From the NCBI GenBank assembly GCA_014193115.1, contig BJHQ01000005.1:264598-328597 (forward strand): 64,000 nucleotides of DNA, written 5' to 3'. A program made the translations under genes and the position numbers. The notes beneath the pieces were generated by a model, which was not told the origin of the DNA, did not search any database, and worked only from the letters and a program-made list of their open reading frames with translations. Below, in pieces: positions 6,665 through 38,240 of the stretch. The stretch is from Planctomycetota bacterium. Its GTDB lineage: Bacteria; Planctomycetota; UBA11346. Positions within the stretch are counted from its first letter, which is position 1, and every line of letters starts with the position of its first letter.

Positions 6665-6814
6665 TGCAGACAACCCTGGACCGGTGCAGAGGAGTACAAG
6701 CACCATGCCTCGTCTCCACTGGTCGCATGCCGGCAGGCGAGCCGCACCCGAGGACCTCGGAAACGCCGTCGTTGCCAACGGCCGTCTCTCGCGCCAACAC
6801 AAGGCCAAAAAAAC

Positions 6815-7102
6815 ATGACCGATCTGACCGCATCCCTTCGCGTCGTGCTGCTGACGATCGTGCTCGCAGTTTTTCTGACGACCGGTGCGGCAGAACCGCT
6901 CCCGGCTCCCGCCCAACCCATCCGCTTCGATATCCAACTCGGCCCCGCCCAGTTCCCGGCCGGCAAGCCCAAGGCGGGTGCACCTCAGCCCGCCGTCCTC
7001 GGAGGTTACATCGAAGTGTGGTCGGCTCTGTGGGCACGAGTCGTTCAGCATGACTTCCGCGCCCATCTGCATCTAAAACTCCATGCCGGAGGGATACTAT
7101 GA
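6815..7102 (+). pseudogene. 5' fragment of a type A paralog (signal peptide plus start of the N-terminal domain); still open, and overlaps the next start by ATGA
   Basis: MTDLTASLRVVLLTIVLAVFLTTGAAEPLPAPAQPIRFDIQLGPAQFPAGKPKAGAPQPAVLGGYIE matches IRFDIQLGPAQFPAGKPKAGAFQPAVLGGYIEGG of the gene at 10526. About 100 nt (6917-7015) nearly identical to ~10619-10717, then unrelated sequence. Confidence 0.8.
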
Positions 7103-10100
7103 AAACCACCCTTGCCCTGATCCTTACAACCGGGATTTTGACATGTTTATCCCCGCTTGCCGCCGCCGACCTGCCCCAGGTCGATCGGTCCAAACCCTTC
7201 CACATCGACCTGTGGATGGGAGTGCCGAGCAAAGATGCCCTGGCCAAAATCGGCATCGATGGTTCGAAGAATAAACTTCCTTCCGATCCTTCCAGCGGCT
7301 GGACCTTCCCCTGGTTCATCGGCGCCGTGCAGGTGGGGACCGAGATCCGGCAACCATATGCACTGCCCTACGAATCCTGGTACACCCCGCACAACCAGTT
7401 GCAGGAAAATGACGGGAACTGTCCCTACGCCTTCTTCAACTTCCGCCAGGCCAAGGAGGACCTGCAGGCTTTCTCGTGCACGATCACGGATGCAAAGATC
7501 AGCGGCAACGCACGGGTCGATCTGGGCGGAACCCAAGCCCTGTCCGTGGCCTGGGAAGGGACCATCAGCGGCAATTCGATCCGCGGCAAGGCGACCATGT
7601 CCCTGGCGGAAGACCGGGTTCTGGAACGACCGCTGGTCGGCGTCCTGCGCCCCACCGAACCGCTCGATCTGCGCAACGCCGTGTATCAGATCAGGTTCAA
7701 GGGCCAGGTCCTGGTCTTCGAGGTGCGCGATGGCAAAGCCGGGCAGGGTTCCGGTCGCCCGTGGGATCCCATTGGACGTCCCGTCGCCTTTGGCCGGCTG
7801 CTGCCGGTCGACGCCTCCCAACTGACGGTCACCGCCCTGCCCCCCGAGGTGCGTGGCGTTTCGGTGGCCCTCGCCGGGATCGTGCAGGTGGATGGAAAAC
7901 CGCTGGAGATTCCCACGACCGTGGTCCTGGCCAACGGTCTGGCCGTCGGACAGGCCACTCGGGGCAAGATGCCTGGGGTCGAGGTCCAGGCCTATCCCCT
8001 GACCGATCCGGTTGCCGCCCGCTGGCGCGACTGGATGGGCGCGATCCATGCCGAGGGCAAACCGGTGGATCCGGCCCTGGTTCAGCAGGCCCAGGACGAG
8101 GCTGCCACCATTCCCGCCCTGCCGGCACCCAGTCCCGCCACGACCTTCACCCATCAGCACCTGGAAGGCCGCTTTATTTACGCACCCTGGCTGCCCCTGT
8201 CGGCAACCGCTGGCGCCGTCAAATATCGGATTGAACTGACCCCATCGCATCCGCCACACTCCAAGCCCCTGGTTCTGGAGGTCGCCGCTGCGCAAAGTGT
8301 CGATCTGCGGCCGGTCTGGGCAGGCATGGCCCCTGGCAACTACGCCCTGGCGATCACCGCCCTGGATGCTGGCGGCGCAGCGATCGGCACGGCGCAGCGA
8401 TCCAAACTGATCAAGAAGGTGCCCTTCGGTTCCCATCCCTTGACGGTCATTCCTGATCCCATCGCCATGGACCTTGCCCTGCGCTTTCCGCGCTACCTGG
8501 CCGATCACCAGTATGCGTTCCATACCCTTTTTCGGGAAATCGATGCCGCCGGCGAGAATGCCGTCATCAGCAAAACCATCGCCTCCATCTGCCATTCGCC
8601 CTGGCATCTTCTGACTCGCTGGGGGACGCCCGCCGAGCAGGTCCGGGGCCGGGTGCTGGCGGACTATTTCACCAAGGTGCTCCAATGGGATGCCGACCAG
8701 CCCCTGGGCATCCAGCAGGGCTACAAGGCCATGTACTTCGGCGCGGCCCAGGACTGGGGCCGGGCCGTGCTGGATGATTTTGCGGCCACCAAGGCCGAGG
8801 ACCGCTTGGCCCTGGTGCGGACGGCCTTCGACCGCCTGTACCGCCTGCAGCAACCCAGCGGTTCGTGGGCACTGATGTGGGACCGGACTCCATGGCCCAA
8901 GTGGTCGGGCGCCTTCACCATGTGGAATACCGCCTGGCTTGACCACAATGGCGCCGCATACGCCCTGCCCTTCGGGCGCTACCGCAATCTGAGCGGCGAC
9001 CACCGCTATCTGGATGCCGAACTCAAGGCCGTGCGCTGGGTGCTGCGCAACTCTCTGCGCACCGGTTATTGGGAGACGCAGGCGCAGCAGGGCGACTCCA
9101 ACTACAACCGGCCCACGGCGCACACCATGGCCTTGGATTTCCTGCTCTACCTGCTGGAGCAGGCTCCGGCCGATCAGGCCGATTCCGTGCTGGCCGAGGA
9201 CATCATGCGCTACCTGGAAGACCAGTTCATCACCTGGGACCGCGTCCCGGCGGTCAGCGGTGGCACCATGACCGACAACGGCGTCCTGCGCCTGGCCATC
9301 GTCTCGCTGCTGCTGCACCAGCGCACCGGCAAGCCCATGCACCTGGCCAAGGCCGAAGCGCTGTTCAACGCCTACATGATCAACCGCGACCCGGTCAGCG
9401 GCCTGACCGACATGCGCTGGAACCGCTATATGTCGGAAGTTGACGATCCGGTGTACGCGCTGCGTTATGTTGAACTGCGCCGCCAGGTACTGGCTGAACC
9501 AACTTCGTCTGCCGTTCTTGGCACCACGCCGCTGACCCTGACCCTGGACCGCGCCGCCGCCGGCAGCGAACGGGTCCGTCTGCATCTGGACAGCCGTGAC
9601 GGGAAGGTCGTACAGGCCATCGCCACCACCCCCACCTGGCAGACCCTCGACATCCCCTTCACCACCGTTTCCCGGCGCCACCAGCAGGACGGTGAAACCC
9701 TGTTCCATGCCGTCGATGCCAGTGGCCTCAAGGTCGGCCCCCACGGCATCGAAGGCTCGGTGAGCGTGGCCCTGGCCGCACCCGGCGGCACGCCGGTGCC
9801 CACCGTGTTCAACCTCACCGCCGCACCTGGACAGCGGACGCTGGTCGGCACCTGGTCGCAGGGCACCGCCACCGGTCGCGTCGCCGGCGAAGGTCTGCGC
9901 CCAAGCGTGGCCAAGCCCAAGCACCTGCACCTCCAGATCGCCCAGGCCGTGGCCGGCGGCGAATCCTGGCAGAACTGGGCGCTGCTGCGCACCAATTTCC
10001 AGGACGGTACCGCAACCGGTGCAGTCATCTGTAACACCAACGCCGGCTGGCGCGCGACCACCACCGCCTGCGACCTGCGCCTGGGGACGGATGGAACCAT

Positions 10101-10485
10101 CAGCGGCAGTCTGGCCACCGACGTGCGCTGGATCGGCTTCATGGACAACAACGCCAGCGATGAGGCCAAGACCAAGGAATGGAAGACCGGCACCCTGGAT
10201 TGGCTGGCCTATTGGAAACTCGGCGGCCCCGGCACCGGACGCGGCAACGAATACGAACCCGGCTTCCGGCCCCTGCCTTGGCCCGAGCACACCAGGATCC
10301 CCGGCAAGGACGACAAGTCCACCGGCCAGCTCGAATATAGCACCACGTCAAAGCCAGTGACCCCAGGAACCTACCGGATCGTCTTCGCCAGCCGACGCAT
10401 CGGCGATCTGGTCGCCGGCACGGCCACGGTGGAAACACCGGATGGCAAAAAGCAGGTCAGCCAGTGTTTCGGCAGTGTCGAATGA
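7099..10485 (+). CDS. Type A large secreted protein of uncharacterised family, copy A1 (divergent)
   Basis: RBS ggaggg before ATG at 7099; signal peptide MKTTLALILTTGILTCLSPLAAA. Helical region with RLYRLQQPSGSW and LAEDIMRYLEDQFITWD; C-terminal tail GTATVETPDGKKQVSQCFGSVE. Confidence 0.8.
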   Translation: MKTTLALILTTGILTCLSPLAAADLPQVDRSKPFHIDLWMGVPSKDALAKIGIDGSKNKLPSDPSSGWTFPWFIGAVQVGTEIRQPYALPYESWYTPHNQLQENDGNCPYAFFNFRQAKEDLQAFSCTITDAKISGNARVDLGGTQALSVAWEGTISGNSIRGKATMSLAEDRVLERPLVGVLRPTEPLDLRNAVYQIRFKGQVLVFEVRDGKAGQGSGRPWDPIGRPVAFGRLLPVDASQLTVTALPPEVRGVSVALAGIVQVDGKPLEIPTTVVLANGLAVGQATRGKMPGVEVQAYPLTDPVAARWRDWMGAIHAEGKPVDPALVQQAQDEAATIPALPAPSPATTFTHQHLEGRFIYAPWLPLSATAGAVKYRIELTPSHPPHSKPLVLEVAAAQSVDLRPVWAGMAPGNYALAITALDAGGAAIGTAQRSKLIKKVPFGSHPLTVIPDPIAMDLALRFPRYLADHQYAFHTLFREIDAAGENAVISKTIASICHSPWHLLTRWGTPAEQVRGRVLADYFTKVLQWDADQPLGIQQGYKAMYFGAAQDWGRAVLDDFAATKAEDRLALVRTAFDRLYRLQQPSGSWALMWDRTPWPKWSGAFTMWNTAWLDHNGAAYALPFGRYRNLSGDHRYLDAELKAVRWVLRNSLRTGYWETQAQQGDSNYNRPTAHTMALDFLLYLLEQAPADQADSVLAEDIMRYLEDQFITWDRVPAVSGGTMTDNGVLRLAIVSLLLHQRTGKPMHLAKAEALFNAYMINRDPVSGLTDMRWNRYMSEVDDPVYALRYVELRRQVLAEPTSSAVLGTTPLTLTLDRAAAGSERVRLHLDSRDGKVVQAIATTPTWQTLDIPFTTVSRRHQQDGETLFHAVDASGLKVGPHGIEGSVSVALAAPGGTPVPTVFNLTAAPGQRTLVGTWSQGTATGRVAGEGLRPSVAKPKHLHLQIAQAVAGGESWQNWALLRTNFQDGTATGAVICNTNAGWRATTTACDLRLGTDGTISGSLATDVRWIGFMDNNASDEAKTKEWKTGTLDWLAYWKLGGPGTGRGNEYEPGFRPLPWPEHTRIPGKDDKSTGQLEYSTTSKPVTPGTYRIVFASRRIGDLVAGTATVETPDGKKQVSQCFGSVE

Positions 10486-10525
10486 AACTTCCTGCAACCG
10501 ATGATCTACGGAGAAACAACAAACC

Positions 10526-13500
10526 ATGACCAAGTCCATCCACCTGGTCCTGCTGGCGGGTTTGCTCGTGGGAATTCATTCACTCAGTGCAGCGGAAACC
10601 CCGCTGGATACCTCGAAACCCATCCGCTTCGACATCCAACTCGGCCCCGCCCAGTTCCCGGCCGGAAAACCCAAGGCGGGTGCCTTTCAGCCCGCCGTCC
10701 TCGGAGGTTACATCGAAGGCGGCAAGGTCACCGGGGCCTATGCGCCAAACATGACCGCAGTCTATGCGGCCGGGCAATCGCCTGATGACAACTATTGGGA
10801 TCTCTGCCCGTACGGGCCGCGTGCACCGATCGAAGGCGAGGCCGCCTGGAGCAGCCGCATCCGCGAGGTTTCAGCGTCCATCGGCCCGGATGGTTTCCAT
10901 GGCACCTGGAGCGTCAGTTTCGGCAAGGGCGATCCGGCCAAGAGCCCGGCCATCACCCCTGAATTGAAGATCCGCATCAAGGCGCATGCGGGTGTGGTCG
11001 GCTATGTGGGCACGTATGAAGGCACGGTGGGCGATGCGGCGGTGCAGGGTCCCTGCGTGGTCCGCGCCCGCAATGTCGCCGCCGGTATGATTGATCCCGC
11101 CAATGCCTTTTACCAGATCATCGGTGGCGGCTTCCGGGTCTTCGTCGAGGTCCGCGCCGGCAAGCCGGTGCAGGCCTGGGCGGTCGCCAATGGCGTGGGC
11201 AATCAGGGTTGGGTCTACCGGCGTCCGGACGCACCGGCGGCTGCCACCCGATTGTCCCCGGCCGATGCCACGGTGCTCACCATCGCCATTGCTGATGAAG
11301 GTCTGGCCGGAACGGCCGCCACCTTGCATGGCACCATCACCATCGCCCCGTCCACCACCCTCAAACTGAATGAAGTGGTCGTCAGTGGCGCCGGAAAAAT
11401 GCGGGTTTCCGGTAAGGATTCCACGGTCGAGGCGGTGCGCAGTTATCCGCTCAACGATCCGCAGATGGCTCGCTGTCTGGATCTGCTCAAGGAGACGCAT
11501 CGTGGCACCAAACCAGTCCCCGAGGCCCTGCTGGCCCAGGTCCGGCAGGAATCCGTGCGCGACGATGTCCAACCGGCGCCCAGCGAGGCGATGCGTTATA
11601 CCCACCGCCTTTGGAAATCGAGCAGTTTCATCTATGCGCCCTGGTTCGACTTCGAAACCGTGCCTGGCGCGGTGAAGTATCGCTTCGCCATCCACACCTC
11701 GAACGTCCACAACCAATTAGTTGAACCGCCGGTCATCAGTTTCGAGGCCGCTTCACCACGCGCCTCGTTGGCTCCGATCTGGGACAAAATGCCGGTCGCG
11801 GACGGTCCACGGGCGTTTCTGTCGCTCAAGGTGACCGGCCTGGATGCCGCCGGCAAGCCGGTTGGTGAACCGCAGTCCCGTGGCATCCAACGCCGGTCAC
11901 CCTTCAACCCCGAAATGATCGTCACCCCCGACGCAAAAGTGCTGATGGAACTGGCCCTGCGCCAACCACGCTTCCTGTTTGATCAGTATCATTCCCATCT
12001 GTATCTGACGGAAGCCGTGCGTGCGGCGGGCAACGGCGTTCAACCATTGGGCTACGGTCCCAGCCACTGGCATAACACGCAGCAATGGCTGGCCATGGAG
12101 GAGACCGACCCCGGGCGTCGCATCCAGCAGTTGCGCCTGCTGGATACCTTCAACAAGCAGCGCCTGCTCGACGTCAATGGCGCCTTCAAGACCCCGTACC
12201 ATTACAACGCCGTCGTCAGTGGCGTCGTGCAGGAGACCGGTCGCAACTATCTCAATGCCCTCGATATCCAGTTCGATGCCGAGGTGGTCGACCGGTTGCG
12301 GTTGTGGCTCCGGTATTTCGGTCGCTTGCAGCAACCCAGCGGCTCGTGGTGCATCTCGGAGCGGGCCGCGCTTGGCTGCTCTGGCGGGTATAGCCTGTGG
12401 GGCAGCCGGCACCTGGAGAATACCAGTGCGCCGTGGCTGCCTTTTATGGCGCGGCTGCGCCGGTTCGATGACCAAATCGAAACCCGCTCCCTCGCCCGCG
12501 CCATCGAGGAGCGAGCGTCATCGTGGGTTCGCAACAATACCCTGCGCACCGGTTTCGGCGAACAGATGCATCAGCAGACCGATCCCACCGACATGGCGCA
12601 TTCGGCCCAGAACCAGATCGAATACGTGCTCTACGTCCTCCGGCACGCACCGCCATCGCAACGCGATTTGGTCATGGCCAGCGACCTGATGCGCCGCATC
12701 GAAGATCTCTTCATCACCTGGGATGCGCTGCCGTTGACCGGGGGCGGTGCTTTCACCTTCGGACCATCGCTGCCTGCCGTCGAGGCGCTGTGCCTGCTGG
12801 AACTCTACACCCTGGATGGCGACCCAGCGCTGCTCGCCAAGAGTGAGGCCTTGGCCGCATCGTACCTGCAACGCGCTGATCCCTGGAACGGAAGCGGGGC
12901 CGATCCGATGACCGGCGGTTTCAGTTTATCCTACAACCGATTCCTGCAAGAAACCGATGACCCGGAATGGATCGTGCGCTGGGTGCAACTCCATCGCGCT
13001 CTCACCAAGGCTCCGCCTGCCGCCATCCCGGAACGTCATCTCACCCTCACCTGCGATCGGCTCATCGACGGCGTCGATCGCGTGGTTCTCGACCTGGCCA
13101 TCGCCGACGGCAAGATCACCCAGGCCCTGGCCCGCACTCCGACCTGGGATGGACCAGGAGCGAACTTTCATCAGCCCGGACGCCTGCACACCCGCCCCGG
13201 AAAGAAGCTGTTCCACACCGTGGATGCCACTGGTCTCGCCATCACGCCGGACGGCATCAGCGGGCAAGTCATGCTGACTTTGCACGATCCGCAGGGTGGG
13301 GAGGCGCGCCGCCTGACCGTCGAAGTTACGGCGAAAAGACAGCATGTCCGCGGCTGGCTGGGAACCTGGAAGCAGGGTCCATCAGGAGGTCGGGTCGAAG
13401 GCCGTACCGTTGCCGACGCGCCAGCCACCGGGGCTCAGCAGATCTTCGTTCAGGTGCATGAAGCCCTGGCTGGTGGCGAGGCATGGCAGACCTGGTCCCT

Positions 13501-13996
13501 GGCTGGCGCGGTACTGCCTGCGGTCGGCACGGCGACCGCCGCCACTTTCATCAATCCCAATGCCGGCTGGACCGCCCAGTCGACCGTGAGCGCGTGCTCC
13601 CTGAATGACGCGGATTTCTCCATGACCATGGATGCCGAGGTGACCTGGCAGGGCGTCGCGGAACTGGAGTACGTCAAGGGTGAATTGCCGAAGGCAACCG
13701 CCAACTATAAAACCACACCGGAATCCGCGCAGGCGCTGCTGGCCAATTGGGAGATTCCCGGCAAGGGATTTACCCTCGAATTCCCACTGCAACCAACCAA
13801 AGGGGATTGGGATCCGGCCAAGCCGGTGGCGTACACCACCACCTGGAAACCAGTCACTGCAGGCAAATACCGACTGAAATGTGATGGCAAACGCCTGGGC
13901 CATATTCTGTATGGCACGGCGATCGTCACCGGACCAGACGGCAAGGAAACTGCGCGGCAGTTTCTGGGTGATGTCGAATCAATCGTAAAACCGTGA
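10526..13996 (+). CDS. Type A large secreted protein of uncharacterised family, copy A2
   Basis: Signal peptide MTKSIHLVLLAGLLVGIHSLSAA; shared motifs VLGGYIEGGKVTGAYAP, GRLQQPSGSW, SDLMRRIEDLFITWDALP, ALARTPTWDGPG, INPNAGWTAQS, GPDGKETARQFLGDVES. Confidence 0.85.
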   Translation: MTKSIHLVLLAGLLVGIHSLSAAETPLDTSKPIRFDIQLGPAQFPAGKPKAGAFQPAVLGGYIEGGKVTGAYAPNMTAVYAAGQSPDDNYWDLCPYGPRAPIEGEAAWSSRIREVSASIGPDGFHGTWSVSFGKGDPAKSPAITPELKIRIKAHAGVVGYVGTYEGTVGDAAVQGPCVVRARNVAAGMIDPANAFYQIIGGGFRVFVEVRAGKPVQAWAVANGVGNQGWVYRRPDAPAAATRLSPADATVLTIAIADEGLAGTAATLHGTITIAPSTTLKLNEVVVSGAGKMRVSGKDSTVEAVRSYPLNDPQMARCLDLLKETHRGTKPVPEALLAQVRQESVRDDVQPAPSEAMRYTHRLWKSSSFIYAPWFDFETVPGAVKYRFAIHTSNVHNQLVEPPVISFEAASPRASLAPIWDKMPVADGPRAFLSLKVTGLDAAGKPVGEPQSRGIQRRSPFNPEMIVTPDAKVLMELALRQPRFLFDQYHSHLYLTEAVRAAGNGVQPLGYGPSHWHNTQQWLAMEETDPGRRIQQLRLLDTFNKQRLLDVNGAFKTPYHYNAVVSGVVQETGRNYLNALDIQFDAEVVDRLRLWLRYFGRLQQPSGSWCISERAALGCSGGYSLWGSRHLENTSAPWLPFMARLRRFDDQIETRSLARAIEERASSWVRNNTLRTGFGEQMHQQTDPTDMAHSAQNQIEYVLYVLRHAPPSQRDLVMASDLMRRIEDLFITWDALPLTGGGAFTFGPSLPAVEALCLLELYTLDGDPALLAKSEALAASYLQRADPWNGSGADPMTGGFSLSYNRFLQETDDPEWIVRWVQLHRALTKAPPAAIPERHLTLTCDRLIDGVDRVVLDLAIADGKITQALARTPTWDGPGANFHQPGRLHTRPGKKLFHTVDATGLAITPDGISGQVMLTLHDPQGGEARRLTVEVTAKRQHVRGWLGTWKQGPSGGRVEGRTVADAPATGAQQIFVQVHEALAGGEAWQTWSLAGAVLPAVGTATAATFINPNAGWTAQSTVSACSLNDADFSMTMDAEVTWQGVAELEYVKGELPKATANYKTTPESAQALLANWEIPGKGFTLEFPLQPTKGDWDPAKPVAYTTTWKPVTAGKYRLKCDGKRLGHILYGTAIVTGPDGKETARQFLGDVESIVKP

Positions 13997-14018
13997 CCAA
14001 ATCGGACGGGGAGGAGCC

Positions 14019-14822
14019 ATGACCAAATTCACCCATTTCAATCTTGGTCGGGAGGCGCCTGATCAGCAACGTCCGCTGTGGGAACGCGGGGTCGGGGTGG
14101 ATGTACTCGGACGGCACGATGATCGGATCACGTATCGGTTGCTTGTACTGCCCATGTTGTTCCTCATTGAACCAGCCGTTGCGGCGCGGGTAGGTGCGTA
14201 TGCGGAAAATGGTGGCACGGTGTTGGCGACCTGGTTGACCGGCATCGTGGACGAGAACAACCTGTGCCATCCTGGTTGGCCAGGTGGCGGCCCGCGCGAA
14301 TTATTTGGGATCTGGGCGGAGGAAATCGATGTGCTCCACGAAAGCGACCGGCAGGAAATTCACTTCAAGCCCGATACTTCGTTGAACCTGACCGGCCGGC
14401 ATCGCGTCCGAGCTTACGCCGATCTTCAGCATCTTGAAGGCGCAACGGCAATAGCAGAATATGGAAGCGATTTCTATGCCGGAAGACCTGCCTTGACCTG
14501 TCATCGCGTCGGTCGGGGCGAAGCCTGGTATCTCGCCGCCGAACTCGACCACGTCGGACTCCATGCCGTGGTTGGCGCATTGGCCAAACGAACCGGGATC
14601 CGCCAACTCCTGCCCACGCCGCATCCCGGTCTCACGGTTCAATCGCGTACCGACGGCAAGACCGAATGGCTCTTCGTCCTGAACTTCTCGGGTCAAACCC
14701 ATTCCGTGGACCCGGGACCAGTGACCGATCAGGAAACCGATGCCACCATACATGAACCTGTGCTGGTCACAGGATGGGGATCCAAAGTGGTATTTCGGAA
14801 AGCGAGGAATGCACTGTCATGA
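14019..14822 (+). pseudogene. GH42 beta-galactosidase C-terminal fragment (trimerisation and C-terminal beta domains only; catalytic TIM barrel absent)
   Basis: YRLLVLPMLFLIEPAVAARVGAYAENGGTVLATWLTGIVDENNLCHPGWPGGGPRELFGIWAEEIDVL is typical of the GH42 trimerisation domain; LTVQSRTDGKTEWLFVLNFSGQT is typical of the C-terminal region. No catalytic-domain sequence upstream. Confidence 0.75.
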
Positions 14823-17800
14823 ATGCACAACCAGGGATCAAGAAAGAGAGCGTGGACATGCGCCGCGAACTCATCCTGCTGGCGTATCTCGCCAGCGCAT
14901 CCTTCACCCTGATGGCGGCAGATGCCCTCCCGCTAGGAAAACTTCCGCCGCCGAAACTGGATTATTCCAAACCGATACAGTTTGATGTGCAATTTTCCCC
15001 TGTGGTATTTCCTCAAGATACCCCGAAAGAGGTTCGCGGTAATCCATTGCCGGCCATCATTGGCGGCTACCTGGAGGGTGGGAAGGTGACCGGCGCCTAT
15101 GCGCCGGATATCAGCCACATCTATCATGCGGGTGCAAGTCCGGATCAGTTCGAGTGGGATCTGTGTCCGTATGGGCCCCGTCATGGTACAGGATCGCGTG
15201 ATGCTCAACGTGAAAAATTCACCAGTTCCACGCTGCGGATGACTGATGCTCAGGTTGAGGGAACCTGGCGTTTCAACTACATTTCCACCAAGGATTCCGG
15301 AAAAACAACCTCGCCAGTCTATGAAATCAGCATCCAGGCCACCGCGACCAGTTGCGGGTATGCCGGAACCTATACCGGAAAAATAGCGGATGTGCCGGTC
15401 AGTGGCGATTGCGTGCTGGCCGCTCATAACATCCCGGCGGGGGTGATCGATCCAGCCAATGCCATTTACCAGATTCTTGGCGGGAACTACGCTGTCTTGG
15501 TCGAAGTCCAAGCGGGAAAAGCAGTCCAGGCCTGGGCGGTTGCGGGGGTGGTTAGTGCTGAACGAACCTGGAGGTATCGTTACCCCGGTGATGCGGTGGC
15601 CGCCACGTTCCTGTTTCCTGCCGATGCATCCGGCATGAGCCTGAAAATCACCGATGAGGGTCTGGATGGCAAGGCGGTCACGCTGGGTGGTCAGATTACC
15701 ATCACGCCGGAACCCAAAACCGCTTCAAGGATGTTTGGACCAACGACCCTCGATCTCAGCGGAACGGTCATCAGCGGCGCAGGAAAAATACGAGGGAATG
15801 GCAAGGAATCCAAGGTGGAACAGGCCAGAAGTTATCCGCTCACCGATCCGTTGATGGCCCGCAGTCTGGCGCTGCTCAAGGAAACTCATCGCGGTAGCAA
15901 ACCAACCGCTCCAGAACTGCTGGCGCAGGCCGATCAGGAATCGCTGCGCACGGATGTCCAACCGGGTCCGAGCGAACAGACCCGTTACATGCAGCGCCTT
16001 TGGAATGGTGGCACGAGTGGGGAATATAACTACCATCGTTCCTACATTTATGCACCCTGGCTCGATCTTGAGGTTGTACCCAGCGCCGTCCGTTATCGGT
16101 TTGACTTGATCGACGCTTCGCATGAAAATACCGGAATCCGGCCCTTGATCGATTTCTTCGAAGCGTCCTCTCCACGGGTCTCGCTTCTTCCGATCTGGGC
16201 CAAGGTGCCCAAGAACCTTGGTCGGAACCCCATCAGTTCACTTCGTGTCACTGCTTTCGATGCTGATGGTAAAGCGCTGGGAAAACCGCAGGAATGCGGT
16301 ATCACTCGTAGGCCGGCTTTTTCCCAGGATCAGATCGTGACCCCTGATCCCAAGGTGCTGATGGAACTAGCGATGCGCCAACCATACCATCTGACCACGC
16401 GATATTATTCACACCTGTATCTGACCGAGGCGGTACTGGCAGCCAAGAACGGGGTGAAGCCCCTGAGTTATGAATCTCCGCATCACCATTTGCCACAGAC
16501 CCTGATGGTCGAGCATGAGGATAATCCGGTCCAACGGGATCAGTACATGCGGTTGTTGAATACCTATGTGGATCGACGAATGAAGGAACAGAATGAACCC
16601 TACTTCAAGCTGCCCTACCACTACAACGTCGGCCTGAATGGCGTGGTCCAGGAAACCGGGCGAAATTTCCTGAACGTCCTGGATCTTCAGCCGAATACCG
16701 AATTATTGGATCGTATGCGTCTGTGGACTCGCTTTTTTTCGCGCATGCAGCAACCCAGTGGTTCATGGACGATTTCCTATCGAGGTATGTTGGGGTGCAC
16801 TGGCGGCTATTCCCTTGGTGGCAGTTTTTTCCTGGATCAACCGAGTACACCCTGGTTGCCATTTCTGGCCCGAATGCGCCAGCATGACAATGATCCGACC
16901 TTTCGCGCCATGGAACGCGCCATCGAGGAAAAGGCGGCGTCCTGGGTTTTGAACAATACGCTTCGTACTGGTTTTTCGGAAAACGTGCAGCAGCAGACCC
17001 TCAGCAACGACAATGGCCACACGGTGCCCAACCAGATTGAGTATGTGTTATATGTGCTGCGCCACGCACCGCCCGTCCAGCGCGATGTCGTCATGGCCAC
17101 CGATCTCATGCGTCGGATCGAGGATCTCTTCATTTCCTGGGAGGCGCACGCGAAAACGAGAGGAGGGAATTTCACCTTCGAGCGTTCGCTCTATCCGATC
17201 GAAGCCCTTTGCTTTCTGGAATTGTATGCGCTGACCGGTGATCCGTTGATGCGGGCCAAGAGTGAAGCCCTGGTCAGCACCTACTTGCAAGACAGCGATC
17301 CCTGGAATGGCAGCAATGGTCTTTCCGGATTGACGAGTAAAATGAATTATGACCGATTCATCCAAGAAACTGACGATCCCGACTGGATCGTGCGTTGGGT
17401 GCATCGTGACCGTGAACTTCGCGCCACCCCGCCCTCTGCCGCACCCGAGCAACACCTGACGGTAACCCTGGATCAACTGATCGATGGCATCGACCGGGTT
17501 GTGCTGGATTTGGCCCTGGCCGATGGCAGGGTGACCCAGGCCCTGGCGCGCACCCCAACCTGGGATGGACCTGGAATCAATTTCTATCAACCCGGCACTG
17601 TCCACACCCGTCCTGGCAAGGCTTTCTTCCACAGCGTGGATGCATCCGGCCTGAAGCTCAGCGCCGAAGGACTCAGTGGTACGGTGAAACTCACCCTAAA
17701 ACCGCCCCAAAGCGATACCTTGATCTCCATGATCGCTGAAATCAGCGCCAAACGCCACGCTCTACGCGGCTGGCGTGGAACCTGGAAACAAGATAATAAT

Positions 17801-21189: not shown

Positions 21190-21236
21190 GCGCCACATGC
21201 TGTTCGTACCCAGTGTTCATTGATCATGGAGCCATC

Positions 21237-22880: not shown

Positions 22881-22927
22881 AGAATCCTGAAAAAGTTGCA
22901 AAACCCGTGGATCCGAAGAGGAACCCT

Positions 22928-25696: not shown

Positions 25697-25708
25697 TATC
25701 CAAATCCG

Positions 25709-26104
25709 ATGCGCAACCATCGTATCAGCGATGACAATCCAATGATTCACTGTTTACACCCGCATCGGTCACGATCCCTGGTGGTGGACTGCAAGCCTCT
25801 GACTCTGGATCCGGTCGAGATAAGACCGAATGGCTGGGTGGCCAAGGAGACCGAGGACAACAAAACTTGGTATGGCCTTGGTGGCATTCGTACCCGTGCC
25901 TATCACCACACCGGTCCGGTCGCCAAACACTGGAAGGAATGGATGACGGCGACCTATACGGGTACGCAGACGCTTTCGTCCGAACTGAGGCAACAGGTGG
26001 CCCGGGAGACTGCGGAACTTCGGCGACGTGCTCGCGGGGACGGTTGCCGTGAAAGCCCGGATGGCAAAGAGGTCGTGTGCCAGTGTTTCGGAAGCCTTGA
26101 ATGA
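25709..26104 (+). pseudogene. Internally deleted, frameshifted type A remnant (resembles A1)
   Basis: IRTRAYHHTGPVAKHWKEWM resembles A1 VEVQAYPLTDPVAARWRDWM; the end SPDGKEVVCQCFGSLE resembles A1 TPDGKKQVSQCFGSVE. The preceding GDVLAGTVAV (A1: GDLVAGTATV) is in another frame. The helical core is missing. Confidence 0.75.
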
Positions 26105-26139
26105 ATAATCCGTCAATGATCACCACCAAGGAGCTTCTC

Positions 26140-29685: not shown

Positions 29686-29689
29686 TCGC

Positions 29690-29865
29690 CAGCGCGGTAC
29701 GAGGGTGGCCTGGGATCAAGCGACGCCAGGCTTCGTCGTCCATTTGGGACAATAGAGTGGCCGTTGCAGACAACACTGGCCAGGTGCACGGGAGTACAAG
29801 GATTATGCCCGTCTCAACTGGTCGATTGTCGGCACCGCTCCGGCAGGTGAGCCGCCCCCGATCTG
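29690..29865. repeat. Degraded duplicate of the AraC regulator 5' end and its upstream region (cf. ~6590-6755)
   Basis: catttgggacaatagagtggccgttgcagacaacactggccaggtgcacgggagtacaag..ctcaactggtcg versus cgtttgggacaatatcgtggccattgcagacaaccctggaccggtgcagaggagtacaag..ctccactggtcg. The AraC start codon position is changed (ATG to ACG on the - strand). Confidence 0.8.
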
Positions 29866-29991
29866 CTGCGAACGAAGGAGAATGAATCCCTTGGACGCTC
29901 TCGGTACGCTTGCGATGCGCTCAATACCACCGTCCTCCGCCATCCTGGCTGGGGCGAATCGCGATCACCTCCGCTTTAGGATAGGTGCCCC

Positions 29992-31386
29992 ATGACCACC
30001 ACCCCGATCATCCTTGAGAACGGCCAAGAATGGAAAATCCTCGAATCAGCAACTGCTTTTTCCACGGATAAATACAAAGATCTGATTGAGGACAGCCATG
30101 CCCGCATCGATCAGCGGCGGCGGCGCTGGTTGGCCCTGCGGCTGAGCGACCGGGACGGCAAAGCCCTTGCCCATCGGACCGTGCGCCTGCGGCAGTTGCG
30201 CAGTGATTTTCTCTGGGGATTTTGCGGTGCCGGAGTGATGGACGCCTGTCACGAACCGCAAAGACTCGAAAATGATGTGGTCAGACGCAACCTGCTGCAC
30301 CTGGGTCGCCTGTTCAACGCGGTGAATCTGTTGAACTATTGGCAGGAGTGGTCTTGGAAGGAGACGCAAAAAGGCGAAGAGTTCATGGGGTACCAGAACT
30401 ACGACACCCTTGACCGGGCGGTGCAGTGGGCCTGTGGCCATGGTCTGGTGGCCAAGTGCCATCCGCTGTGGTGGGGCGTCCCCAAGGCCATCCCCGCTTG
30501 GATGGACCGTTTTGATGCGAAGAAACGCTCCATGTTCCGTGAGGTCCGTCTGCGTCAGATCGTCAACCGGTTCAAGGGACGCGTCAGTGTTTATGACGCA
30601 GTCAACGAGGCCATCTGGGAACCGACCCTGGCCAAGACCGCCACCCGCCACTGGCCTCACAACACACCGATCCCCGAGTTGGCACAGGACCTCGCCGAAG
30701 TCATGGCCATCGTTCGTGATGAGGATCCAAATGCGACGATGGTCATCAATGATTACGGCCAATGGGTCGGCGATACGACCAAGATTCCGGTTGCCTGCAG
30801 CGATGGCACCTTTATCAGCAATCAGGACCAGGCCCAGCGTTACCGGGACCTGATGATGGCCCTCAAGGATCTGGGTGCTGCCCCCGATGCCATGGGTTTT
30901 CAGGGATTTTCAGCCATCGGGAAACTGGAACAGCACGTGGCCACGTATGATTTCCTGGCCAAGACCGGCCTGCCCATCCACGTCACCGAATTCCATGCCG
31001 GAGGAGCCCATGCTGCAAACTTGGTGAAGGCCGGTGTGCCCCGACCTGAAATCATCGACCGGATCGCCGAATATGCCGATGCCTCGATGGTTTTGGCTTT
31101 CGCCCATCCGGCTCTTGAGGCATTCTTCTTCTGGTATGACCAGGACTATCTGTTCGATGGACGCGGTCTGCCCAGCGCCTGGTACAACCGGATCTACCAG
31201 CGCATCCACAAAGACTGGACCACCGATGTGGTTATGACCACTGACGCGGATGGACTCCTGCGTACTCGCGCCTTTACCGGCAGTTATCGCCTGTCCTTCG
31301 AAGAGCCAGGCGTATCGCCCACCGGAATCAATCTCAGCATCCCGGCCGCCAGTCGCGGGGAAATCGCGATGCAGGTCATCATATGA
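29992..31386 (+). CDS. Glycoside hydrolase family 10 (endo-beta-1,4-xylanase-like), no evident signal peptide
   Basis: GLVAKCHPLWWGVPKAIPAWM, VYDAVNEAIWEP (acid/base Glu), GLPIHVTEFHAGG (nucleophile Glu). Confidence 0.85.
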   Translation: MTTTPIILENGQEWKILESATAFSTDKYKDLIEDSHARIDQRRRRWLALRLSDRDGKALAHRTVRLRQLRSDFLWGFCGAGVMDACHEPQRLENDVVRRNLLHLGRLFNAVNLLNYWQEWSWKETQKGEEFMGYQNYDTLDRAVQWACGHGLVAKCHPLWWGVPKAIPAWMDRFDAKKRSMFREVRLRQIVNRFKGRVSVYDAVNEAIWEPTLAKTATRHWPHNTPIPELAQDLAEVMAIVRDEDPNATMVINDYGQWVGDTTKIPVACSDGTFISNQDQAQRYRDLMMALKDLGAAPDAMGFQGFSAIGKLEQHVATYDFLAKTGLPIHVTEFHAGGAHAANLVKAGVPRPEIIDRIAEYADASMVLAFAHPALEAFFFWYDQDYLFDGRGLPSAWYNRIYQRIHKDWTTDVVMTTDADGLLRTRAFTGSYRLSFEEPGVSPTGINLSIPAASRGEIAMQVII

Positions 31387-31537
31387 TCGGCTGGCAACAA
31401 GCCGCGCAGGACACTCATCCTGGAATGAGATGTCAACAAACGCGAGATATTCCGACCATGCAGAAGGGAACCAGATGACCCAATGCGCTGGACGGGCATC
31501 GTGGTGCATCATGAACCAACCGCAGGAGAATATTCCT

Positions 31538-34500
31538 ATGTGCTGCCAGCCCGTTACTGATCGTCTCGCCTCTTTCCCTCCGGCACCGTCCTGGCCACAC
31601 GGCGCAGCATCAGTCTGGGGCAGGCGGTTGGCGGTTTTCCTAGCGGTGCTGTCCGTGGCCGTGGCCGCCGATCCGGCCCTCGCCGGCCTCACCATCGATC
31701 GCGGTGTCGCCCTGAGCGTGCCCGGTTCCAAGACCACCATCGAACTCGCCAGCAGCGGGCGGTTCGTGGTCCATGCCCTGGTGGTGGATGAGGCCGCCCG
31801 TGCGTCCCTGGCGGCGCAGCTGGCGGCGGCGGAGAGCTCCGCCGGTATCGTTCAGTCGGATGCACTGCCCCGCCTGCCGTATGGCGACCGAATCGCCAAC
31901 CTGGTGGTGTGTGATGCCGACGCCCTCGGCGGCAAGGCTCCGACCCAGGCTGAGGTGCAGCGGGTGTTGGCTCCAGGCGGTGTCCTGCGCTGGCACCAGG
32001 GCGGGACCTGGACGACCATCGCCGCCTCGGCCACCGCCTCAGGCATCTGGCCAAGTTTCGATGGCGGCCGAGGCAGCATGGCCAGCACCGATGATCCGCT
32101 GATCACCCTGCCTCTGGCGGCGCGCTGGCTGGATGGGCCGGTGATCGGCCAGACCCCGGCCGGGGTCGACATCTGGTGCAGCGTGGTCAATGGCGGCCGA
32201 TATGTCCAGGTCACCAACATCGACGAGGCCAATGTCCATGCGCCGGCCCGACAACGGCCGTTGTGGATCGTCGCCCGGGACGCCAGCAATGGCACCCGGC
32301 TGTGGCGGCAGCGCTATCCAACCGATCTGTCGGCCCAGAAGGCTCTGCCCTGGGGCGGCTACATTGCCGCCAGCCCGCGCTGCATCTTCGCTTTCGCTGG
32401 CAGCGATCAGGTTGCGGCCTTCGACGGTGCCACCGGGGCAGAGATTCGCCGCTTCGCCCTTGGCGGTCCCCGGCGGATTCCCGGGCACCTGGTGTGGCAG
32501 GGCGACCGGCTGCTGGCTCAGACCACCGCCGGCTGGAGCGCCTTCGCCGAGGACGGCACACCGGCCTGGTCCATCGTCACGAAGGACCTGTGGCCAGGCT
32601 GGGGAGCGGCGATGATCACCCATCTTGCCGACCATCAGGTCCTGGTGCTCCAGGAAGGCGATCGCATGCGGGCGTTCAACCTCGCCGACGGCACTGAACG
32701 CTGGTCGGTGGCCATGTCCGCTCCCGGCGACCGCGGCGTGCGAACCTGGCAGCTGCAGGCGCTGTCCGGGGGCAGCGTGGCGGTCCGGACCCAAGGCGAA
32801 CTCACCGCGTATTCCCTGGTGGATGGCCTCAAGCGCTGGACGGTGGCAGCGACCGGCAACCTTCCTTTCACTGGCCGGCCTGACACCTACGCCTGGAACG
32901 GTGGATTCGCCCGTGCCGGGAAGAAATTTGATGCGGTGACCGGGGCCGACCTGGGCGGAGCGCCGAACGCCAGCGTCGATCGCTGCACCCTGCCTCTGCT
33001 GACTTCTACCTTCCACATCAGCAGCCACAGCAGCCATGTCGGCAGCGCTGATCCCAAACAGCGCCTGCCTGGTTACGCAGCCCTGCGCCTGTCCTGCAAC
33101 AGCGCCAACGCGGTGGGTTCGGGGCTGATCTTCGGCATCGCCTCGGACTGCATGTGCAATGCCAGCCATCTGCGCGGCATCACCGCCCATGGTTCGGCCC
33201 CGGCTGCGCTCATCCAGGCCGATCCGCAGACGCCCCGGCCCACGGTGCGCGGTGCCGGGAAGCCGGCGCCAGCTGCCAGCTCAGCGCCGGCAGCAGCCTC
33301 TGGCAAGGAATGGCCGATGTTCCGGCAGAATATCCAGCGATCTGCTGGTCTCGACGCCGCGCCGCTGCGGTCGCCAGCTCAGCTCTGGAGCGTGGCCGCA
33401 TCACCGTCGTTGGTCCCTGGCCCGGTGGCCGTGTCCCGGGCGGCTGGCGGACAGGCGGGCATCCGCGGGCTGACCTGTGCCGAGGGACTGGTCTGCGTCG
33501 CCGATGCCGGCCATCAGCGGGTCCTTGGCCTGGACGTTGGCGACGGTCGGCGGCGCTGGGCGGTGCAACTGGGCGCTGGCCTGGACACACCGCCAACCAT
33601 TCACGCCGGGCGGGTGCTGTTCGGCGCCCTCGACGGCTGGGTGTGGTGTCTTGCGGCGACGGACGGAGCGCTGATCTGGCGTACCCGGCTGGCCCCCGCC
33701 GAGGATTTCCTGCCCGCATACGGCCAGGTGGCGTCGCGTTGGCCGGTGGTGGGGGCGGTGACGGTGGCGGATGGCCTGGTCCTGGCCAGCGTCGGGCGCA
33801 GCACCGCGGTGGATGGCGGGGTGCTGTTGGCTGCTCTCGATCTCGATACCGGCGCAGTGCGCTGGATCCGTCCGATCAATCCGGTTGGAGGCCGGGAAAG
33901 CCGCTCGTTCAACGACGTGCTCATCGCCGGCGGCCGCGGTCTGCGCTTCCTCGGTCAGCCGGCGACGCCGGTACCGGCGCCTGCTGCTCAGGAAAAGGAA
34001 TCACCTTCCGACACCCTGGTCCCAGCGGTGGAGGGCCTGGCCAACTTCGTGCGCAATGACCAGGACGCGGCTCTGCACGGCTATACCTGGGCCCCGATGT
34101 TGTACGGCGGTATTCGTGGCCGGTTGCTGGCCTGGCGCGATCAGCGGATCTTCGGCTTCGCCCGGCACAGCTACGCGTGGATCAACAACAGCACCACCCA
34201 GCTCAAGGATCCCCTGGCCGTTTTCATGGCCCCGGCCGACCTCGTCAGCTCGGCCGCCAGCAACCTGCCGGCCAAGAATGCGCCCGCGGACTACGGTCCA
34301 CCGACGGCGTGGAGCCGGCCCCTGGGTGCGACCAGCGATCGCCTGCAGGCCTGCCTGGTGGTGGGCGACACCGCCTGGGCCGCCTGGACGGTTGCTCCGG
34401 CGGCGTCTGGCGCTGCGGATGCTGCGGCTGCGGCTGCGCCAGCCGCGGTCCGGGAGACCGGCCGCATCGCCAGTTGGAAACTCGCGGATGGCACGCCCGG

Positions 34501-34612
34501 TCCGATCATCGACCTCGATGCCGGCCTGATGCGCGACGGCCTGATCGCCACCGACGGCCGGCTGTATGCGGCCTGCTCCGATGGTTCCGTGCGCTGCTTC
34601 CATGATCGCTGA
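31538..34612 (+). CDS. Secreted PQQ-like beta-propeller protein with N-terminal degenerate methyltransferase-like segment, copy 1
   Basis: Start at 31538 (RBS caggag) or 31511. N-terminus contains ALPRLPYGDRIANLVVCDADALGGKAPTQAEVQRVLAPGGVLRW; propeller repeats IVARDASNGTRLWRQRYP, VLGLDVGDGRRRWAVQLGAGLDTPPT, LAATDGALIWRTRL. Confidence 0.8.
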   Translation: MCCQPVTDRLASFPPAPSWPHGAASVWGRRLAVFLAVLSVAVAADPALAGLTIDRGVALSVPGSKTTIELASSGRFVVHALVVDEAARASLAAQLAAAESSAGIVQSDALPRLPYGDRIANLVVCDADALGGKAPTQAEVQRVLAPGGVLRWHQGGTWTTIAASATASGIWPSFDGGRGSMASTDDPLITLPLAARWLDGPVIGQTPAGVDIWCSVVNGGRYVQVTNIDEANVHAPARQRPLWIVARDASNGTRLWRQRYPTDLSAQKALPWGGYIAASPRCIFAFAGSDQVAAFDGATGAEIRRFALGGPRRIPGHLVWQGDRLLAQTTAGWSAFAEDGTPAWSIVTKDLWPGWGAAMITHLADHQVLVLQEGDRMRAFNLADGTERWSVAMSAPGDRGVRTWQLQALSGGSVAVRTQGELTAYSLVDGLKRWTVAATGNLPFTGRPDTYAWNGGFARAGKKFDAVTGADLGGAPNASVDRCTLPLLTSTFHISSHSSHVGSADPKQRLPGYAALRLSCNSANAVGSGLIFGIASDCMCNASHLRGITAHGSAPAALIQADPQTPRPTVRGAGKPAPAASSAPAAASGKEWPMFRQNIQRSAGLDAAPLRSPAQLWSVAASPSLVPGPVAVSRAAGGQAGIRGLTCAEGLVCVADAGHQRVLGLDVGDGRRRWAVQLGAGLDTPPTIHAGRVLFGALDGWVWCLAATDGALIWRTRLAPAEDFLPAYGQVASRWPVVGAVTVADGLVLASVGRSTAVDGGVLLAALDLDTGAVRWIRPINPVGGRESRSFNDVLIAGGRGLRFLGQPATPVPAPAAQEKESPSDTLVPAVEGLANFVRNDQDAALHGYTWAPMLYGGIRGRLLAWRDQRIFGFARHSYAWINNSTTQLKDPLAVFMAPADLVSSAASNLPAKNAPADYGPPTAWSRPLGATSDRLQACLVVGDTAWAAWTVAPAASGAADAAAAAAPAAVRETGRIASWKLADGTPGPIIDLDAGLMRDGLIATDGRLYAACSDGSVRCFHDR

Positions 34613-34745
34613 ACCAGACCAGGCGAGCATCCAAAGTATTCACCAGGCATGTCAGTGCCTGCATCAGCATCACCGCTTGACCTCGGAGCCGCCATCGGAG
34701 CGGCCAGAGTTCCAACATGCCAAGCACAATCACCAGAAGATAACC

Positions 34746-37700
34746 ATGATTAGGTCCATCCAGATTATCCTGCTGACGACTCTCGTCGGCCTATCATGCA
34801 CATTGGCGGCTGCAGACGCCGCCAGCACTCCGCCGTCGCCAAGACTGGATTTGACCAAACCGGTTATCTTCGATGTCCAATTCGCTCCGGCGACGATTCC
34901 AAAGGATGCTCCGAACGAGGTTCGCAGCAATCCCATGCCGCTGATCATCGGCGGCTATCTGGAAGGCGGCAAGGTCACCGGGGCCTATGCACCGGATATC
35001 AGTTATGTGTATTTTCCTGGCGGAAGTCCGGATGAGGTCGCATGGGCGCTGTATCCCTATGGCCCATGTCGGGAAACGGGGAATCGTGGTGGACGTTATG
35101 CACAACAAGAGAAGTTCGCTCGTGCATCCCTGCGATTGAACGGGAATCAGGCTGAGGGGGCCTGGACCTTTCGTTTCGTATCCAGCAAGGATCCCAGCAA
35201 GGCGCTCTCTCCAGATTATGCCCTGAGTATCAAGGCTGTCGTGAAGGGCAGCGGATTTGCCGGAACCTATTCGGGGAAGATTGCTGACTATCCGGTCAGC
35301 GGCGAGTGCGTCCTGTTCGCCCGCAATGTTCCGGCGGGGATGATCGATCCCCTCAATGCGTTCTACCAGATCATCGCCAGCAATTACCGAGTAGTGGTGG
35401 AAGTCCGGGCGGGCAAGGCGGTCCAGGCCCTGGCAATAGCCAGCGGCAATGACGCACATGCCACCGCTGTGCATCCCGCCGATGCGTCAGGCATGACATT
35501 CACGCCGATGGATCAGGGCCTCGACGGGACTGCGGTGACGCTGGGCGGACAGATCATAGTCACGCCATCGGTTTCAGCAGGTGCCAAGGCGATCCCCCCG
35601 GTCAGCATTTCCCTCGACGGCACGGTCATCAGTGGCGCCGGGAAGCTTCAGGTGAAATCCACGGTCAATTCCGCGCGCAATTACCCGCTGGGCGAACCCT
35701 TGATGGCCAAGAGCTTCGATGTGCTGAAGGCGAGTTTCCGCGGGGCAAAACCAGTTTCACCAGAACTTTTGGCGCAGGCCGAGGCGGAGTCTCAGTGGAA
35801 CGTTCAGCCGGCCCCAAGCGAGTCGACGCGTTATTCCCATCGTCTGTGGCGCACCACGAGTTTCATCTATGCCCCTTGGCTGGATTTCGATGCGGTGCCC
35901 AATGCCGTGCGCTACCGCTATACCATCGATCCGGCAGAACCGAGCAAGGACGTGAAAACCGCCAGTTTCGAGTCCCTGTCGCCCAAGGCGTCGCTCGCTC
36001 CGGTGTGGAAGGATCTTCCCACCAATACGGGGCTCAGACTGCAAGTGACCGCCCTTGATGCCCAAGGTGCGCCCATCGGCAAACCCCAGGAAAAGCTGAT
36101 CACGAAACGCGCCCCCTTCGGTCCTGAGATGGCGGTGACCCCTGAGGCCAGGGTGCTCATGGATCTGGCCATGCGCCAACCCTATCACCTGACCGAACGC
36201 CTCCATTCCCACCTGTACCTGACCGAGGCGGTGATCGCCGCAAATACCTCGGTCAAACCGATGGAGTATCACAATGCCCATTTTCATTTCTCACAGCAAC
36301 TGATGGCTGAACAGGAGCAGGATCAGGCGGGGCGGGATCAGTACCTGCGTCTCCTGGACACCTTCGTTCAGAGACGCCTGGAGGAAACCTTCGGGGAATT
36401 CAAGATCCCGTACCACTACAATGTGGTCCTGAGCGGCGTGGTGCAGGAAAACGGCCGCAATTTCCTCAATGCCTATGAGCAACTCCCGAATGCAACCGTA
36501 CTGGATCGTTTCCGGCTTTGGGTGCGTTACTTCGCCCGTTTGCAGCAACCGAGCGGTTCTTGGACCATTTCCTCGCGTGCGGCATTCAGTAGTACCGGCG
36601 GGTTCAGTCTGTGGGGAAACCGTTTTCTGGATGCAACCAGCATTCCGTGGCCGCCGTTTCTCGCGCGCCTGCGCCAGATCGACTCTGATCCTGGCACGCG
36701 TGCGCTCGAACGTGCCATCGAGGAACGTGCCATCGCCTGGTTTTCCAACAACACCTTGCGGACGGGTTTCGGAGAATTGCTGCACCAGCAGACCGATCCT
36801 GGTGATATGCAGCACTCCGCCGGGAACCAGATTGAATACGCCTTATATGTTCTGCTCCACGCGCCGCCTGCGCAGCGCGATGTGCTCATGGCCTCGGACC
36901 TCATGCGGCGCATCGAGGATCTCTTCATTTCTTGGCATGCTGTCCCCACCACCGGGGGTTGGAATCTGACCTTTGGCAATTCTCTGTATGCGGTCGAAGC
37001 CCTGTGCCTCATGGAATTATACGCCCTCACCGGCGATCCGCTGCTGCGCGCCAAGTCGGAGGCCCTGGCAACCGCCTATTTGCAACGGAATGATTCGTGG
37101 CATGGCACCAATCCCAATTCCAACGCCTATGTCGGTGGCGATGCCCTCGGCTATAATCGCTATATCCAAGAGCAGGATGATCCCGACTGGATCGTCCGCT
37201 GGGTGAAACGGGACCGTGAACTGCGCGCCTCACCGCCAGTCGCGATTGCTGAAAAGCATATCTCGTTGTCGTTGGATCGGCTGATCGATCAGACCGATCG
37301 GGTGGTTTTGGATCTCCAGGTGGCGGATGGCCAAGTGACCCAGGCCCTGGCGCGCACGCCGACCTGGGACGGCCCAGGAATCAATTTTTACCAGCCTGGC
37401 AGGCTTCACACCAGGTCCGGCAAGGCACTGTTTCATGGTGTTGATGCCTCGGCCTTGAAACTCAGCGCCCAGGGGCTGAGCGGCACGGTCAAACTTGCCC
37501 TCAAACCGCCACAGGGCGAAGAGATCCGCAATATCACCGTGGAAATCAACGCCAAACGCCACGCGCAACGCGCCTGGCGCGGCGCCTGGAAACTCGCCCA
37601 GGAAAATGGTCGGACCGAAGGCATCACCCTGCTTGATCCGGAGATCACCGGATCGCAGCAGGTCTTTGTCAAAGTCCACGAAGCCCTGGACGGTGGCGAA

Positions 37701-38240
37701 GCCTGGCAGACCTGGGCCTTGGCCGGTACCGTCATCCCGAAAAACGGCAGTGCGAGCGGTGCCATGCTGGTCAATCCCAATGCCGGTTGGACCGCCCAGA
37801 CTTCGGTGAGCGACTGTGAACTGAAATCCGAATCCTTCGCCATGACCATGAACACCGAAGTCGCCTGGCACGGTGTGGCAGAACGATCCAAGCCCGATGC
37901 CTGGCAGTGTTACACCTACAAGACCACTCCTGAAGCGAAGGAGGCGCTGCTGGGGTATTGGCAGATCCCCATCACCCGAGGCGGCGGCGGCGAAAAGAAC
38001 GGTGAGTTATACCTCAATCTCGGCTTCCCCCTGCGCCCGGAAATCGGGGATCTGCCACCAGATGGAAAACTGACCTATGAAACCAGCTGGAAACCGGTCA
38101 CCCCGGGAAAATACCTGTTGAAGCTCACAGGCCAGCGCCTGGGCAACATCCTGTACGGCACAGCCACCGTGACCGGGCCGGACGGAAAAAACGTTGTTCG
38201 TCAGTTCCTTGGCGATGCCGAAAGCATCGGAAAGCCGTGA
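34746..38240 (+). CDS. Type A large secreted protein of uncharacterised family, copy A5
   Basis: MIRSIQIILLTTLVGLSCTLAAAD signal peptide; IIGGYLEGGKVTGAYAP, FARLQQPSGSWTIS, ALARTPTWDGPGINFYQPG, NPNAGWTAQT, GPDGKNVVRQFLGDAESIGKP. Confidence 0.85.
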   Translation: MIRSIQIILLTTLVGLSCTLAAADAASTPPSPRLDLTKPVIFDVQFAPATIPKDAPNEVRSNPMPLIIGGYLEGGKVTGAYAPDISYVYFPGGSPDEVAWALYPYGPCRETGNRGGRYAQQEKFARASLRLNGNQAEGAWTFRFVSSKDPSKALSPDYALSIKAVVKGSGFAGTYSGKIADYPVSGECVLFARNVPAGMIDPLNAFYQIIASNYRVVVEVRAGKAVQALAIASGNDAHATAVHPADASGMTFTPMDQGLDGTAVTLGGQIIVTPSVSAGAKAIPPVSISLDGTVISGAGKLQVKSTVNSARNYPLGEPLMAKSFDVLKASFRGAKPVSPELLAQAEAESQWNVQPAPSESTRYSHRLWRTTSFIYAPWLDFDAVPNAVRYRYTIDPAEPSKDVKTASFESLSPKASLAPVWKDLPTNTGLRLQVTALDAQGAPIGKPQEKLITKRAPFGPEMAVTPEARVLMDLAMRQPYHLTERLHSHLYLTEAVIAANTSVKPMEYHNAHFHFSQQLMAEQEQDQAGRDQYLRLLDTFVQRRLEETFGEFKIPYHYNVVLSGVVQENGRNFLNAYEQLPNATVLDRFRLWVRYFARLQQPSGSWTISSRAAFSSTGGFSLWGNRFLDATSIPWPPFLARLRQIDSDPGTRALERAIEERAIAWFSNNTLRTGFGELLHQQTDPGDMQHSAGNQIEYALYVLLHAPPAQRDVLMASDLMRRIEDLFISWHAVPTTGGWNLTFGNSLYAVEALCLMELYALTGDPLLRAKSEALATAYLQRNDSWHGTNPNSNAYVGGDALGYNRYIQEQDDPDWIVRWVKRDRELRASPPVAIAEKHISLSLDRLIDQTDRVVLDLQVADGQVTQALARTPTWDGPGINFYQPGRLHTRSGKALFHGVDASALKLSAQGLSGTVKLALKPPQGEEIRNITVEINAKRHAQRAWRGAWKLAQENGRTEGITLLDPEITGSQQVFVKVHEALDGGEAWQTWALAGTVIPKNGSASGAMLVNPNAGWTAQTSVSDCELKSESFAMTMNTEVAWHGVAERSKPDAWQCYTYKTTPEAKEALLGYWQIPITRGGGGEKNGELYLNLGFPLRPEIGDLPPDGKLTYETSWKPVTPGKYLLKLTGQRLGNILYGTATVTGPDGKNVVRQFLGDAESIGKP

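Follow-up and report, generated by a model that had tools for sequence, protein, structure and literature searches.

A stretch of 64,000 nucleotides from a Planctomycetota bacterium (assembly GCA_014193115.1, contig BJHQ01000005.1, positions 264,598 to 328,597), referred to here as the window, encodes seven giant paralogous proteins, five of type A (A1 to A5) and two of type B (B1 and B2), which share an Fn3-like domain followed by a helical toroid. On sequence comparison, this core belongs, as a divergent branch, to a larger family that is uncatalogued and is present in Bacteroidales, Clostridia and Planctomycetota. The seven proteins are best read as secreted multimodular carbohydrate-active enzymes built around the Fn3-like and toroid core, with a probability of roughly one half. 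A fuller account is offered more tentatively: a new (alpha/alpha)6 carbohydrate-active family may have had compact founders in Bacteroidales, Clostridia and Planctomycetota; a single planctomycete lineage would then have built giant enzymes from them, re-made the active site and arrived at nine genes, seven of them in an operon-like cluster. The catalytic claim is made because of conservation, fold and gene neighbourhood, from which the activity, its residues and its substrate are proposed. The five type A and two type B genes of an original prediction, made from the DNA letters, were all recovered as open reading frames:

7099 to 10485, plus strand: A1, 1128 amino acids, with N-terminal beta, Fn3-like, toroid and C-terminal beta domains and a signal-type N-terminus
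10526 to 13996, plus strand: A2, 1156 amino acids, architecture as in A1
14774 to 18418, plus strand: A3, open reading frame of 1214 amino acids, probable start about 14858
18415 to 21189, plus strand: B1, 924 amino acids, probable start about 18442
22877 to 25696, plus strand: B2, 939 amino acids, probable start about 22928
26101 to 29685, plus strand: A4, 1194 amino acids, probable start about 26140
34566 to 38240, plus strand: A5, open reading frame of 1224 amino acids, probable start about 34746

Type A frames thus range from 1128 to 1224 amino acids (n=5), and the two type B frames measure 924 and 939; for A3, A4, A5, B1 and B2, translation probably begins at an internal ATG. A hydrophobic segment ending in A-x-A, judged by eye, stands at all seven N-termini, in keeping with the signal peptides that had been predicted for them. 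B1 consists of its own N-terminal beta region, the Fn3-like domain and the toroid, and the C-terminal beta domain is absent. Antisense to A1 lies an open frame of 1047 amino acids (7147-10290, minus strand), probably a shadow frame of GC-rich coding sequence.

The relationship to the compact family is carried by profile comparison. The A-type profile aligned with it co-linearly across the Fn3-like domain and the toroid (hhalign 99.9%, E 1.3e-35, 424 columns), B1 aligned with it at 99.9% and E 2e-33, and shuffled sequences gave nothing. Compact proteins have the same co-linear Fn3-like and toroid arrangement and the motifs QxxxGxW and EDxxxxW; they differ in being smaller and in possessing the motifs LEQY...PIDAS and WxNC, whereas A and B add beta domains. 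Since A and B lack EQY...[IV][DN] and WxNC, they are classed as relatives, not members, of the compact subfamily. The toroid is not confined to this locus, as compact relatives occur in other genomes.

The AlphaFold model of A4 (predicted local distance difference test, pLDDT, 69.8; predicted template modelling score, pTM, 0.77) contains an N-terminal beta domain at about residues 53-335, the Fn3-like domain at about 398-499, a toroid of about 11-12 helices at about 504-859 and a C-terminal beta domain at about 869-1190, with beta domains exceeding half of the protein. The highest Foldseek probability for its toroid was obtained with AprG, an apramycin transaldolase of antibiotic biosynthesis (template modelling score, TMt, 0.58, but 13% identity), followed by the GH76-like protein Lin0763 (0.55) and the unsaturated glucuronyl hydrolase (UGL) of GH88 (0.46), all with E above 0.01. 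B1, modelled with pLDDT 60.5 and pTM 0.57, matched GH76 structures at TMt 0.50-0.60, and GH127 (HypBA1), PL5 and epimerases were also listed. The A4 model therefore favours the toroid-like core that had been proposed, with sugar-active (alpha/alpha)6 proteins as its best matches; with such toroids as the nearest folds, the fold class is supported, and no family assignment follows.

Searches for named families covered Pfam, NCBIfam and PDB sequences, a scope in which a CAZy family that lacks a Pfam model might escape notice. No A or B protein reached a Pfam or NCBIfam cut-off, and profile searches of PDB sequences returned only short helical-hairpin or spurious weak matches. The statement that the proteins fit no named glycoside hydrolase (GH) or polysaccharide lyase (PL) family was upheld within this scope. 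A full-length match to an established GH, PL or binding family, the main outcome named beforehand as contrary to it, did not appear. No description of this toroid family was found in the open-access literature, subscription papers lying outside its scope.

It is improbable, and was already disfavoured, that A and B belong to an established family, for instance GH76 or GH127, and have diverged too far for profiles to recognise them. The best Pfam score of any A or B protein is that of B1 to GH127 (PF07944), at 21.8 bits against a cut-off of 24.9 and over one short stretch; no type A protein matches this model. For GH76 (PF03663), no A or B protein matches and a single compact member scores 16.7 bits against 25.9; for GH88 and GH105, there is no Pfam match among A and B. 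The compact profile reaches a GH76 structure at E 2.6e-7, with a best stretch of about 31 residues. By structure, GH76 (alpha-1,6-mannanases such as BcGH76) is the best family for B1, with the same (alpha/alpha)6 fold and TMt up to 0.60, but identity is 11-12%, E-values are weak and any correspondence between the adjacent Asp pair of GH76 and the ED pair would be hypothetical. Likewise, HypBA1, a beta-L-arabinofuranosidase of GH127, has a toroid like that of B1, but the Pfam score stays below cut-off. These matches are short, sub-threshold and scattered: the weak Pfam matches of the compact members (n=9) spread over GH127, GH47, GlcNAc-2-epimerase and pectate lyases, a pattern such as a shared helical-hairpin repeat gives. 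The compact profile also failed to match the GH127 protein encoded in the window (4%) or a GH88 protein of Coprobacter.

Compact members are mostly about 520-620 amino acids long, two carry an extra N-terminal part, and most have a signal-type N-terminus; their loci include L043, L059, L061 and L039. A scan of genome contigs with a compact relative led to Coprobacter secundus and a Clostridia metagenome-assembled genome, and among 295 genomes from the order of Coprobacter, another Coprobacter copy and three further convincing members were detected. In a more distant group (genomes G232, G252 and G111), the toroid is flanked on both sides by other beta domains and the ED motif is missing. One locus from the Planctomycetota profile searches described below (L038, genome G250) was set aside, as it probably matched through a pectate-lyase-like helical repeat. 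In the Bacteroidales genome G355, a decayed compact-gene fragment with three stop codons lies near an intact copy (contig C42, 76398-76769, the L060 region).

The neighbourhoods of these relatives bear on chemistry. The first Coprobacter gene is preceded by two heparinase II/III-like genes and a GH88 gene, the second stands with a PL8 lyase, SusD, a BNR-repeat protein and an esterase, and a sulfatase and a GH42 gene lie near the G111 relative. No obvious adjoining glycan genes were read from the open reading frames around the Bacteroidales members at L060 and L062; glycan association of the relatives is therefore frequent, not universal. It is conceivable, though unlikely, that uronic acids are the target of the toroid, with a lyase-type elimination or a dehydration in place of hydrolysis, and that A and B descend with that chemistry. 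The lyase and GH88 genes beside the Coprobacter copies and the PL5 lyases among the structural neighbours of B1 point this way, but no lyase or GH88 gene was recognised by Pfam in the window's cluster. Toroid lyases typically use a set of His, Tyr and Arg residues, and this set is not evident among the family-wide invariants. A further point for such chemistry comes from the sugar-active family formerly called GH154, a glucuronate dehydratase (BcGDH) that feeds GH88 (PMC12269599). GH154 itself was considered as an assignment and no evidence was found for it; it does not occur within the 50 top-ranking PDB fold matches given for each of the A4 and B1 models.

The giant form was encountered only in its own genome. 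A profile search of 392 Planctomycetota genomes, with at most two candidates scored in each, did not find it elsewhere, and a protein search of 294 Planctomycetota gave matches in its own genome only. Profile searches of 288 and 392 Planctomycetota yielded relatives at the level of the toroid or of the beta domains only, the toroid-level ones in a few genomes, and the giant form is absent from one congeneric genome that is 81% complete. Pattern scans, which are of limited reach, produced 20 candidates and 0 relatives with the A-type profile in genome contigs, and no relative in viral contigs. Two proteins of about 520-560 amino acids (L033:1351-2925 and L077:879-2570, both on the minus strand) consist of beta repeats only, are related to the type A C-terminal domain and have neither a toroid nor a Pfam match.

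Within the genome, the genes are paralogs under purifying selection. In an all-against-all comparison, A2 to A5 share 54-79% identity, A1 is about 30-32% identical to them from end to end, and B1 and B2 are 40% identical; likeness between A and B is restricted to the Fn3-like and toroid region, with E down to about 4e-18. Two further full-length type A genes, on contigs C7 and C19, bring the genome-wide number to nine, and the tree divides type A into A2 to A5 and a second group of A1 with these two copies. The N-terminal beta domain, first described as common to all seven, is shared by type A only; for B1 and B2, profile comparison gave no match to the N-terminal region of A. The associated motifs IRFDxQ and GGYLEGGKVTGAYAP are present in A2 to A5, A1 being divergent there. 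A3 and A4 are 81% identical, with an overall ratio of non-synonymous to synonymous substitution rates (dN/dS) of 0.18. Domain estimates, where computable, are 0.13-0.27, those for A4/A2 and A4/A5 being rough as synonymous saturation is nearly reached; A and B are therefore functional genes rather than chance open frames. In each of the three pairs compared, the toroid is the domain with the lowest ratio (0.13-0.17) of the four. The cluster also contains two dead fragments of family members:

6824 to 7015, plus strand: truncated remnant, the first 64 amino acids of an A2-like gene, 64% identical to A2 residues 1-64 and overlapping the 5' part of the AraC frame described below
about 25784 to 26098, plus strand: internally deleted remnant, an A1/A7-like fragment running directly into the extreme A-type C-terminus

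Together with the closeness of A3 and A4, these remnants point to repeated duplication and loss.

The case for an active site begins with conserved motifs. All 18 sequences of the compact, A and B groups keep EDxxxxW; QxxxGxW is missing from the Clostridia member alone, which has V for Q. In the A4 model, short loops join the helices on one side of the toroid and long loops on the other, and the conserved acidic pair lies on the latter:

28378 to 28398, plus strand: A4 motif E760-D761-x4-W766, on the side where the modelled toroid has its long loops

Among A-type sequences, invariant residues occupy 17% of long-loop, 9% of short-loop and 12% of helix positions. Near the QFEDV-type motif that compact members also have, A and B possess an acidic residue, which in A4 is E713.

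Several observations weigh against an enzymatic reading. The long-loop enrichment is modest, and the putative active-site loops fall in low-confidence regions of both the A4 and B1 models. The FEDV acid aligns uncleanly with that of A and B, E713 having been placed by eye. The sole fold match with E<0.001 is that of complement C3b, an unrelated toroid, to B1. LEQY...PIDAS and WxNC, invariant in the compact family (9/9), are absent from A and B, and similar motif losses also occur in inactive paralogs; catalysis by A and B, argued from sequence and model, is therefore plausible only. The main rival, which is considered rather unlikely, is that A and B are catalytically dead descendants of toroid enzymes, kept as secreted proteins that bind or present glycans, with the beta domains serving adhesion. 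Besides the motif losses, the large share of beta domains in type A and the relationship of their C-terminal domain to the toroid-less, beta-only proteins agree with this idea, but the toroid is the most constrained domain by dN/dS in the three pairs compared, and EDxxxxW and QxxxGxW are retained.

The gene neighbourhood is consistent with carbohydrate-active function. The order is A1, A2, GH42 fragment, A3, B1, PQQ, B2, remnant, A4, GH10, PQQ, A5, PQQ, PQQ, GH95 and GH78-like gene, all co-directional from A1 onwards, and several neighbours overlap by 4 bp, so the cluster may be co-transcribed. The features surrounding the paralogs are as follows:

5762 to 7072, minus strand: AraC-type regulator (HTH_18), divergent from the cluster at its start
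14019 to 14822, plus strand: GH42 fragment with trimerisation and C-terminal domains only, catalytic barrel absent
21153 to 22880, plus strand: PQQ-type beta-propeller protein
29992 to 31386, plus strand: GH10 protein
31250 to 34612, plus strand: large PQQ-type beta-propeller protein, whose true start lies downstream of the frame start
38237 to 41281 and 41278 to 44433, plus strand: two large PQQ-type beta-propeller proteins
44471 to 46873, plus strand: GH95 protein
47046 to 49391, plus strand: GH78-like (Bac_rhamnosid6H) protein
50483 to 52186, plus strand: GH127 protein, farther downstream of the cluster

The description of the region as a carbohydrate-active enzyme locus is thereby supported, with GH10, GH95 and GH78-like genes inside the cluster and GH127 nearby. 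It is highly improbable that A and B are structural envelope proteins unrelated to glycan processing: they are secreted and large, and the genome is rich in large propeller proteins (77 PQQ_2 matches), but the clustering with glycanase genes, both in the window and near several relatives, and the conserved toroid motifs speak for a different role. PQQ-type propeller genes occur near each of the three loci with type A genes in the genome (G000; contigs C5, C7 and C19, that is, the window, L063 and L064), a proximity that is partly background given these 77 matches. An Rfam search of the window returned no RNA family. Two other window proteins (241-2151 and 60888-63896, both on the minus strand; 637 and 1003 amino acids) have no Pfam match and are apparently related to each other (hhalign 92.5%).

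If A and B are secreted enzymes, the Fn3-like and toroid core would have acquired its beta domains by fusion, probably to bind glycans or to act as spacers. Tandem duplication would then have multiplied the fused genes within a co-directional cluster that also holds GH10, GH95, GH78-like and PQQ-propeller genes. A cleft would be made by the long loops of one toroid face; there, an acid from the 707-727 loop (E713 in A4), together with the invariant residues E760 and D761, may cleave a glycosidic bond, with W642 and W766 as putative sugar platforms. This bond might lie in a plant-type heteroglycan, in its side chains or its oligosaccharides, which the products of neighbouring genes would trim as well. 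The lost LEQY...PIDAS and WxNC motifs and the divergence among the A and B copies suggest a changed specificity.

Toroid enzymes are important in the processing of uronic-acid-rich and of heavily branched polysaccharides, and the family described here is without a name in the libraries searched. Its relationships connect the extreme expansion at one planctomycete locus with an uncatalogued family of gut bacteria whose genes lie near those for glycosaminoglycan-type lyases and GH88. Biochemical data on a single compact member would suggest what the group as a whole does, and changes in specificity could be followed across the seven paralogs as a natural series.

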